This document shows positions 437 through 47,445 of a DNA stretch of 64,000 nt, in pieces (positions within the stretch are counted from its first letter, which is position 1; every line of letters starts with the position of its first letter). The DNA is from Permianibacter aggregans. GTDB taxonomy: Bacteria > Pseudomonadota > Gammaproteobacteria > Enterobacterales > Permianibacteraceae. The notes beneath the pieces were generated by a model. The model ran no database searches and had not been told where the DNA came from. It was given only the letters and a program-made list of their open reading frames with translations. Where the stretch lies: NCBI RefSeq assembly GCF_009756665.1, contig NZ_CP037953.1, forward strand, positions 1,488,001-1,552,000. Direction: 5' to 3'. A program made the position numbers and the translations under genes.

Positions 437-690
437 ATGGTTTGCCGGGTCTCGCCCCGGCGGGCGAAGTACTTTCTCTTGTTCGCGCAAGAGAAAGTAC
501 TCAAAGAGAAGCGCGCCCCGAAGCGCCAGGTTGGTTTTGCTACTTCGACAAGGCAGTTCCGGCATCGACAGGCTTACAGCTCGGGCCGCGCTGACTCGGC
601 ATCCATGCCTCAACAGCGCTTCAACCGCTGTCCCTGCGGTTGTACCTGGCCTCCAGCCTGTCGCTACCGGCTGGCGCATACGGGGCCCCG
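437..690 (+). repeat. long dispersed intergenic repeat, copy 1
   Basis: About 250 bp that recur in inverted orientation at 47193-47445 with clear but incomplete identity. It contains a 14-bp perfect inverted repeat (agtactttctcttg / caagagaaagtact) with a six-base loop around 469-502, and a second dyad around gccggg...cccggc. The copy lies between the 3' ends of the WYL gene and gmk. It fills most of the 447-bp gap, in which I see no convincing gene; the open frames here are by-products of the repeat. Confidence 0.8.
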
Positions 691-39291: not shown

Positions 39292-39762
39292 ATGAAGATC
39301 GATATTGGAATGTCTGATGCACAGCGTCAGAAAATTGCCGACGGCCTGTCACGCTTGCTGGCCGATAGCTATACGCTTTACCTGAAAACCCATAATTACC
39401 ACTGGAACGTTACCGGCCCGATGTTCAACACGCTGCATACGATGTTCGAAACTCAGTACACCGAGCTGGCTATCGCCGTCGATGACATCGCTGAGCGTAT
39501 TCGAGCACTCGGTTTCAAAGCGCCGGGCAGTTATCGCGAATATGCCAAGCTGACCCGCATCGAGGAGGAAGAAGGTCATCCGAGTGCCGAGGAGATGCTG
39601 GCACGATTGGTCAAAGGCCAGGAACGGGTGGTGAAAACCGCTCGTGAATTATTCCCGGCTGTCGATGAAGCCAATGATGAACCGACCGCGGATCTGCTGA
39701 CGCAAAGAATGCAGATCCATGAAAAGAATGCATGGATGCTTCGTTCGATGTTGGAAAGCTAA
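39292..39762 (+). CDS. dps: Dps-family ferritin-like DNA protection protein
   Basis: 156 residues forming the four-helix bundle of Dps dodecamers, which store iron and shield DNA from peroxide. Ferroxidase-site residues are in [18 protein letters not shown] (His) and [11 protein letters not shown] (Asp, Glu). It starts after gaggaggaaac. The 3' end is copied twice downstream as part of 79-bp repeats (39809-39887 and 40003-40081). The basic N-terminal DNA-binding extension of E. coli Dps is short here. Confidence 0.93.
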
Positions 39763-39808
39763 GAAATCGCGCCCCAGGCAATGAAGTCGAAAGGCATTCT
39801 TTAGCTTT

Positions 39809-39887
39809 AGCCCCGAAGGGGTTGTCGCACAGGGATGTGCGGCAACAAAAAAACGCCTGGATGCTCCGATCGATGTTGGAAACCTAA
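39809..39887 (+). repeat. 79-bp hairpin plus dps-tail repeat, unit 1
   Basis: The unit holds a short cccc-gaa-gggg hairpin, an 11-bp hairpin (gttgtcgcaca / tgtgcggcaac with one G-U pair), then 39 bases that read in frame [12 protein letters not shown]-stop, the last residues of Dps. Compared with dps this tail has five synonymous changes and one Ser-to-Thr change. It is not joined to any start codon. Confidence 0.85.
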
Positions 39888-39970
39888 TCAGTCCAAACAA
39901 TCACTGATAGCCGAGAAGCGTTTTTGCACTCGATGCGTCCTGCATCTCGCCCTCCGGACAACTTCGTTGT

Positions 39971-39996
39971 GCAATTCGGCAATCCTGCCGAATTGC
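39971..39996. repeat. 11-bp perfect hairpin in the dps 3' region
   Basis: Arms gcaattcggca / tgccgaattgc with an atcc loop, between the two repeat units. Smaller stems around 39933 and 39959 make the 320 bp behind dps a dense series of hairpins. Confidence 0.8.
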
Positions 39997-40002
39997 CGCG
40001 CC

Positions 40003-40081
40003 AGCCCCGAAGGGGTTACCGCACACGGATGTGCGGTAACAAAAGAATGCATGGATGCTTCGTTCGATGTTGGAAAGCTGA
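40003..40081 (+). repeat. 79-bp hairpin plus dps-tail repeat, unit 2
   Basis: Same 79-bp plan as unit 1. Its 11-bp stem (gttaccgcaca / tgtgcggtaac) differs from unit 1 by a compensated base-pair change (G-C to A-T), and a U-G is replaced by C-G. Its dps tail ([12 protein letters not shown]-stop) is identical to dps over 39 bases except the stop, which is TGA. Confidence 0.85.
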
Positions 40082-40093
40082 AAGACTAAGCAT

Positions 40094-40124
40094 TAAAAAA
40101 GCGGGACTCAGTCCCGCTTTTTCA
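40094..40124. terminator. Bidirectional terminator between the dps repeats and uppP
   Basis: The stem gcgggac / gtcccgc with a tca loop, flanked by aaaaaa on the left and tttttc on the right, 20 bp from the uppP stop. Confidence 0.85.
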
Positions 40125-40143
40125 TTGTTATTGCTTAATCCCG

Positions 40144-40968
40144 TCAGGATGCATGCCAATCCACCCAGCCCATGCCGGCCGTCAGCAAGATGACCAAGCC
40201 AAACGCAATCCGGTACCAAGCCAACGGGATGAAGGTGTGGGTGGAAATGAAACGCAGCAACCAACGCACGCACAACCAGGCCGAGAAAAACGCCGCGATG
40301 AAACCGACGGCGAACATTGGCAGGTCGGCCATCGTGAACAACTCGCGCGATTTCCAACCGTCGTAAACGGCGGCGCCGAAGATCATTGGAATCGACAGGA
40401 AGAAGGAAAACTCGGTGGCGGCCTTGCGCGAATAACCAAACAACAAAGCGCCGATGATCGTTGCACCGGAACGTGAGGTACCAGGAATCAATGACAGGCA
40501 TTGCGCCAGCCCCACCTTCAACGCATCTTGCCAGCGCACATCGTCAATGGTCGCGACGGTAATCCGATGCGTACGCTTTTCGGCCCAGATCATGATCACG
40601 CCGCCAACGATGAACGCCCCCGCTACGGTAATCGGATTGAACAATACCGATTTTATGGTACTGGCGAACAAAACACCGAGCACTGCCGCCGGGATAAAAC
40701 TGATCACGATATTGAAAAAGAAGCGTTGCTCGTTGCGGTCATGCCAAACGCCGGTGGTCAGTTGCCACACCCGCTGACGATACTCAAAGAAAATCGCCAG
40801 AATGGCGCCTACCTGAATGACCACCTCGAACACTTTGGCTTTTTCACCGGTAAAGCCGATCAAGGCGCCCGAGACAATCAAATGACCGGTACTCGATACC
40901 GGCAAAAACTCCGTCAAGCCTTCGACGATGCCCTGGATCAACGCGAGCACCAATATCCACCAATCCAT
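40144..40968 (-). CDS. uppP: Undecaprenyl-diphosphate phosphatase
   Basis: Integral membrane enzyme that dephosphorylates undecaprenyl pyrophosphate to renew the carrier for peptidoglycan and O-antigen; also gives bacitracin resistance. 274 residues, as in E. coli BacA. Conserved motifs are EGLTEFLPVSSTGHL and PGTSRSGATI. It is the last gene of a probable operon midA-like / 95-residue protein / uppP, and lies close to mtgA, another cell-wall gene. Confidence 0.95.
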   Translation of the reverse strand: MDWWILVLALIQGIVEGLTEFLPVSSTGHLIVSGALIGFTGEKAKVFEVVIQVGAILAIFFEYRQRVWQLTTGVWHDRNEQRFFFNIVISFIPAAVLGVLFASTIKSVLFNPITVAGAFIVGGVIMIWAEKRTHRITVATIDDVRWQDALKVGLAQCLSLIPGTSRSGATIIGALLFGYSRKAATEFSFFLSIPMIFGAAVYDGWKSRELFTMADLPMFAVGFIAAFFSAWLCVRWLLRFISTHTFIPLAWYRIAFGLVILLTAGMGWVDWHAS

Positions 40969-47192: not shown

Positions 47193-47445
47193 CGGGGTCC
47201 CCGTCTGCGCCAGCCGGCAACGACGTGATGTAAGCCGGGTACAACCGCAGGGACAGCGGTTGTAGCGCTGTTGAGGCATGGATGCCGAGTCAGCGCGGCC
47301 CGAGCTGGAATCATGTCGTTGCCGGAACTGCCTTGTCGAAGCTGCAAAAGTCTTCTGGCGCAGTTGGGGCGCGTTTCTTTGCTTACTTTCTTTCGCGCGA
47401 GCAAAGAAAGTGAGGCGCCTGCCGGGGCGCGACCCGGCAAACCAT
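47193..47445 (-). repeat. long dispersed intergenic repeat, copy 2 (inverted relative to copy 1)
   Basis: About 250 bp that match 437-690 in reverse complement. The central hairpin here reads cttactttcttt / aaagaaagtgag with a nine-base loop; its bases differ from copy 1 but pairing is kept apart from one G-U. It lies between the DUF6174-like gene and tsaD, again between the 3' ends of two genes. A small open frame (MRHGCRVSAARA...PELPCRS) occurs in both copies. Confidence 0.8.

Follow-up and report, generated by a model that had tools for sequence, protein, structure and literature searches.

Hairpin repeats with GGA loops adjoin copied ends of dps and tRNA genes in Permianibacter aggregans

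The window analysed here is a 64,000-nucleotide stretch (positions 1488001–1552000) of the 4,266,648-base, one-contig genome of Permianibacter aggregans. It contains a dps gene followed by two 79-bp units, each combining a pair of hairpins with a copy of the dps 3′ end, as the original prediction had described (Table 1). Within each unit, a CCCC-GAA-GGGG hairpin (B) precedes an 11-bp hairpin with a 4-base loop (C) and a dps tail with its own stop, and the two units are 87% identical across 77 ungapped positions. The tail copies correspond to the last ~13 dps codons (39–41 bases), and the gaps between tails and units measure 46 and 115 bases. Folded as single-stranded DNA, both copies beat their shuffled counterparts, with z values of −4.7 (0/200 shuffles as good) and −5.4 (1/200). 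Unit 1 has no clear hairpin A. A single terminator-like site was returned by the consensus scan of 39650–40180, and this hairpin is probably the original dps terminator.

Table 1. Features of the dps locus, in window positions.
Feature	Position	Strand	Parts and basis
dps coding sequence	39292–39762	+	ORF list; self match in genome search
dps own tail	39722–39760		39-base stretch found again in unit 2
Unit 1	39809–39887	+	hairpin B 39811–39821; hairpin C 39821–39846 (loop GGGA); tail copy 1 39847–39887
Inter-unit module, opposite orientation	39925–39998	-	minus-strand order hairpin A GCAATTCGGCAGGATTGCCGAATTGC, CCGGAGGG, GATGCAGGACGCATC; GGA loops in all
Hairpin ahead of unit 2	39971–39996		occupies the A position
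Unit 2	40003–40081	+	hairpin B 40005–40015; hairpin C 40015–40040 (loop CGGA); tail copy 2 40041–40081
Terminator-like hairpin	40096–40122	+	3′ of tail copy 2; consensus scan

The second tail copy is, as claimed, identical to dps over 39 bases (39722–39760 versus 40041–40079). The first differs from dps at six sites, five of them third-position synonymous changes and the sixth a Ser-to-Thr replacement. That tail 1 had been under protein-level selection, as first proposed, holds insofar as five of the six changes are synonymous; were all codon positions equally likely, at least five of six changes would fall at third positions with a probability of 0.018, and thus the hint is a modest one. The accompanying suggestion that tail 1 came from another dps gene finds no support, the genome's second dps being rejected as its origin for its clearly different tail. 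Codons AAC GCC are common to tail 1 and the dps of a same-genus genome (G001), and AAG and CGT are common to the gene's own tail (tail 0) and the G001 dps. This split fits tail 1 being an old copy of the resident dps, the working copy of which would since have changed synonymously.

The tail copies might also be the residue of a tandem dps duplication in decay, with hairpins settling there by chance, and the original prediction had offered a scar of repeated dps duplication and deletion as one explanation. The protein-like character of tail 1 would suit such an origin, but only the last 39–41 bases are left, the same hairpin junction occurs twice, and junctions of the same kind are found at tRNA genes (see below). 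Of 104 further dps loci that have 400 or more bases of downstream sequence (both strands counted; four loci with too little sequence were dropped), none carries a tail copy, the best candidate having 17 mismatches in 42 positions, and on this ground the decay of a duplication is rejected as very improbable. In G001, the single dps lacks units, and a terminator-like hairpin and an uppP-like reverse-strand region come after it; neither there nor at the 104 loci was there a full tandem dps, the arrangement in relatives that would have pointed to simple decay. Among 573 ORFs scored as coding in this genome, dps alone has its last 36 bases repeated downstream (up to eight mismatches, within 1200 bases); these ORFs come from the window and 20 stretches of 20 kb, together 464 kb or an 11% sample, and they, like the genes in the strand-bias count below, were called by a rough codon-score procedure rather than taken from a curated set.

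The B and C hairpin pair of the dps units belongs to a dispersed module of ~65–75 bp with three hairpins (A, B, and C), of which it forms half. Hairpin A has the form stem-NNGGA-stem, B is CCC-GNA-GGG, and C is stem-CACANGGATGTG-stem; the order that recurs from context to context is A, then B after a short spacer, then C, and mostly then AA. Stems vary among module copies yet still pair, and both A and C retain GGA in their loops. A genome search gives 26 sites for the core CACANGGATGTG and none for the reversed pattern. Fourteen of these sites lie in a ~210-bp repeat, three in a ~390-bp repeat, and two in a larger duplication, two are the dps units, and five are others (one of which, L220, is by context not a module); the 26 are, therefore, not independent events. 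The ~210-bp repeat itself (L211 and 13 other loci) is 84%–91% identical over 14 places and is flanked by GAAGCCATCTCAAAAA-like inverted ends; a GGA module lies in one arm of the repeat there, and L263 and L266 have it in the opposite arm.

A covariance model of B and C (R1), built from 12 copies and scored on 150 of 1781 first-look candidates, matched this genome at least 42 times at E ≤ 10 and at least 37 times at E < 0.02, training copies included. Together with the 26 core sites, these matches place the hairpin, for which a search of the full genome had been recommended, far beyond dps. Hairpin C of unit 1, which was outside the training set, is matched at E 4.5e-4, and unit 2, which was inside it, at E 1.5e-5. 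With stricter filters, R1 matches at E ≤ 0.01 were obtained in nine of 59 genomes including this one (that is, eight of 58 relatives), with 34 in this genome, five each in G002 and G041, three in G001, and one in each of five genomes. The A-B-C order is seen in matches from G001, G002, G041, G016, G040, and G017, a reading that covers the relatives' matches other than two in G041 and those of G056 and G058. Modules also occupy sites that lack a gene tail, among them L236 and the ~210-bp repeat. We are highly confident that these sequences form a hairpin repeat family that is defined by structure and abuts gene ends.

Conservation of pairing, with the stem sequence left free, is seen most directly in the C stem. 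Across 12 aligned copies, 84% of cells pair, and 12 cells are double-changed as against a shuffle mean of 3.5 (0/500 as high), a signal that vanishes when the alignments are slid by one to three columns. Two of the five covariation measures are weak, namely the number of pairs with a double change (4 versus 2.5; 77/500 shuffles as high) and the number of further pair types (9 versus 6.5; 42/500), and two C-stem columns mostly fail to pair under the standard rule, many copies holding opposed G and A. For 22 of the 29 candidate modules—those in which both A and C were found—each arm matches the partner in its module better than those of other modules (0/20000 permutations). Beyond A and C, the flanks likewise pair with one another (mean 6.8 versus 5.0, 0/20000 permutations; seven of the 22 reach 8), as though the modules sat in the loops of older hairpins. 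Several modules are related and hence non-independent in these pairing and loop statistics.

The loop list from the arm-fit test is circular, since its hairpins were picked by their GGA loops. A loop-blind version took the longest hairpin upstream of C in 27 of the 29 modules, with the two dps units left out and the C hairpins still GGA-chosen: 21 of the 27 have a stem of at least eight pairs, and 19 of these 21 A hairpins, with 15 distinct stems, carry GGA in or beside the loop. Strong hairpins in general show no large excess of such loops (GGA or TCC lies in the loop of 22 of 293 across 464 kb); the GGA signal belongs to the module family. Arm–partner fit and C-stem covariation both support the earlier contention that the fold matters; of the two compensated stem changes between the dps units on which it had drawn, G-C to A-T is a true double change and G-U to C-G is one-sided.

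Copied gene ends adjoin modules at tRNA genes too. Six of the 46 tRNA genes examined—Glu (448561), Met (with two copies), Tyr, Gln, Glu (3957121), and Phe—have a nearby copy of their last 20 bases (up to three mismatches), in every case downstream. Five of these copies directly adjoin a module end, the C end at both Glu genes and Tyr and the A end at Met and Phe; tails of other genes are, as anticipated, attached to the hairpin (five of 46 tRNA genes). R1 matches within 400 bases of a tRNA gene number six of 42 against 0.29 expected (binomial P 4.6e-7), and these six fall at four loci. The tRNA copies start in the T-loop, the 5′ strand of the T-arm lies partly across the module, and the terminator is repeated in several. 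The spacing from gene to copy is 63–178 bases, with no gene in between. At tRNA-Met, two tandem units with a 167-base period form a counterpart of the two dps units. Part of the inter-unit module at dps matches the repeat that interrupts a second, broken tRNA-Glu copy elsewhere in the genome, at 448722–448794 (E 1.5e-8, genome search). Direct repeats across the middle were present in six of 38 loci (L226, L236, L261, L284, L003, and L219), of which L219 is dps and the other five are tRNA loci, L261 being a weak single match. Tail duplication also occurs alone: tRNA-Gln (L322, G000:C1:3160056) has a partial second 3′ half 63 bases downstream, without a module.

Scars left by integrases start in the T-loop and extend to the CCA end and terminator. 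The tail copies, which run from the T-loop to the CCA end and terminator, could be attR-like remnants of integrative elements that utilised gene 3′ ends and were then lost or shrunk, with the modules as element ends or as later settlers in the scar sites. As with attL and attR, an intact gene lies upstream and a copy of its 3′ end downstream with a T-loop boundary, and such duplicated 3′ ends are present at dps and at six of the 46 tRNA genes; the module-free copy at tRNA-Gln and the tandem copies at Met and dps, which resemble tandem integrations, point the same way. However, the 63–178 gene-free bases between tRNA gene and copy hold no body with an integrase, the module is shorter than 200 bp and itself gene-free, one type of module serves Glu, Tyr, Met, Phe, and dps, whose ends differ, and modules are also found at the tail-free sites. 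We regard attachment-site scars as a possible but rather unlikely origin.

The module is a kind of dispersed palindromic repeat, a variant distinguished by GGA loops, free stems, and gene-end duplication, and it is a presumably non-autonomous repeat of the bacterial family studied here. It resembles REP/REPIN elements, which are moved by RAYT (REP-associated Y1) transposases, in being short, dispersed, intergenic, palindromic, gene-free, and either single or clustered. It differs from them in that its stems are free and its loops kept (the 15 stems among 21 A hairpins being no conserved palindrome), in that its copies adjoin duplicated gene ends, and in that no module lies near the one REP-type Y1 gene. 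The genome has ten Y1 transposase matches, nine of which we take to be IS200-type and one REP-type (the gene at 1994261). The flanks of seven of the ten hold other hairpins and no GGA-loop module, and RAYT or IS200 ends were rejected as the module source on this basis; the REP-type gene has no module in its flanks, and the nearest R1 match, among those listed, is ~69 kb away. Miniature inverted-repeat elements (MITEs) are likewise small, gene-free, and multi-copy, with an enzyme presumably made elsewhere, but the module appears to have no terminal inverted repeats in its sequence, and the one empty/filled pair (L236) shows at most an ambiguous A-run duplication of the target. Integron attC sites have core boxes RYYYAAC and GTTRRRY and are associated with an IntI gene; their stems also vary. 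Literature covered by our search, which lay mostly outside subscription papers, yielded no description of GGA-loop modules joined to tRNA or gene tails.

The reading towards which we lean is that of an insertion-type hairpin repeat with local duplication at gene ends. The module would land inside gene ends, at hairpin loops or A-runs—the targets being the AAAAGAATG loop close to the dps end and, in tRNA genes, the T-loops—and its stems would be free to change provided that pairing holds. Insertion together with local tandem duplication would leave an intact gene upstream and, downstream, the module and the far half of the target, which would be the tail copy, often with its terminator. Selection would retain the intact copy, and only insertions that also duplicate the gene end would survive. 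At dps, the unit would then have been doubled, with a reversed module between the copies. Being joined to copied ends of dps and several tRNA genes, the repeat seems to leave duplicated ends on landing. The original view of a repeat that captures or exchanges gene tails goes further than the data, which show modules abutting duplicated ends at dps and at five tRNA genes; the mobility of the module, the direction and order of events, and the concerted nature of insertion and duplication are what we infer.

The dps junction lies between CATG and AAAAGAATG, within an inverted repeat (ATCCATG...CATGGAT) that appears comparable to a T-loop. The target's left half cannot be seen at dps. An inverted partner for the dps tail, sought upstream of the units, was not significant for unit 1 with tail 1 (180/500 shuffles as good) or unit 2 with tail 2 (116/500), and was borderline for unit 1 with tail 2 (25/500). 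A tRNA-Ser locus (L236) provides a near-clean empty/filled pair, read by eye, in which the module alone (~66 bp) is inserted at an A-run, A-runs at both ends leaving target duplication ambiguous. At a tRNA-Ala/tRNA-Glu locus, a module followed by TATCCCCGTGG is present in both G001 and this genome, with differing stems; GGA loops occupy A and C in G001 and A in this genome, in which hairpin C is worn and reads CACAGGGAGGTG. This module is either an old insertion, the stems of which were rewritten while the loops held, or the product of two insertions in the same spot. The family ties structure-defined repeats to the duplicated ends of essential genes, and this link allows one to ask how a cell survives the entry of small repeats into its tRNA genes.

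Two loci concern gene 5′ sides. Upstream of an intact tRNA-Ser gene (G000:C1:4212224), L261 has a module and then AATGCACCGGTCT, a piece of that gene, and is a 5′-side counterpart of the tail copies. At L214 (1190026; L214 1423–1580), the 25-base stretch TGGGGGCGATCTGGCTTCGACGTGG occurs twice without mismatch, 132 bases apart, with the hairpin CCCTCACA-AGGA-TGTGAGGG between the two copies. We take the sequence behind the second copy to be the start of the tmRNA gene; ARAGORN calls no gene at L214. If this recognition is right, the 5′ end of a structured-RNA gene is duplicated around a GGA hairpin.

Hairpin C reads ACANGGAUGU, a match to the CsrA SELEX consensus RUACARGGAUGU (PMC7652899), and CsrA is encoded in the genome. 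The units could thus act as a Csr/Rsm sponge, in which a dps transcript reaching 40122, or a short RNA from the 3′ region, would bind CsrA via the ACANGGAUGU hairpins and the tail copies would be retained for their further GGA motifs. There is a 3′-UTR-derived precedent in the RsmA-binding RNA RsmU (PMC7694677), which was shown experimentally. As in CsrB/RsmZ small RNAs, GGA lies in the loops of both C hairpins at dps, and unit 2 with the terminator is RsmZ-like in shape: Rfam model PrrB_RsmZ matches 40003–40126 at E 2.4e-5. The score of 32.9 bits is, however, below the gathering score of 44, and sub-threshold matches are common (30 of 59 genomes, and five of 14 control genomes, unrelated ones included); a stricter genome-wide search listed six for this genome, with the dps locus not among them. 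A search of 39650–40180 for sigma-70-like promoters found none, and module stems have 6–11 pairs, compared with at most four contiguous pairs in most SELEX hairpins (PMC7652899).

Modules are oriented at random: 16 of 33 are in sense with the gene upstream of them and 15 of 32 with the gene downstream, and an mRNA element was rejected for lack of the expected strand bias. With a match to the CsrA consensus on one side and no strand bias on the other, the RNA sponge stays a rival reading, and one that we consider quite improbable. At dps itself, both C hairpins are in sense with the gene and no terminator-like site precedes 40096, so a local RNA role there may exist. A separate CsrB-like gene is present elsewhere in the genome (L207; G000:C1:3038843-3039085), with several CAGGAYG loops and 39.3 bits against a cut-off of 71 (E 4e-9), and upstream of it is what we take to be a GacA-type motif. 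Directly at the terminator of this gene, on the other strand, lies a module (L282).

Insertion and CsrA binding may also be combined, in a new class of miniature repeat with several hairpins, marked by GGA loops and pairing rather than by stem sequence, that inserts in hairpin loops of gene ends and copies the interrupted end, by which the host gene would survive. With GGA loops making transcripts CsrA-binding, an expressed gene such as dps would gain a CsrA-binding 3′ tail from each insertion behind it, and we hold this composite reading to be unlikely. The family also offers a testable tie between dispersed repeats and the Csr system, since its stems change freely and its loops fit the CsrA consensus.

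Two further kinds of repeat were noted. Another hairpin family lies at window positions 622–642 and 47240–47264, L138 355–379, and L146 9053–9077, with stems of 7–9 bp (TACAACCGC in two) and loops AGGGACA or AAGGACA. A stretch of ~2.3 kb is present twice, 99.5% identical, near 1418430 and 1427181 (L216 and L217).
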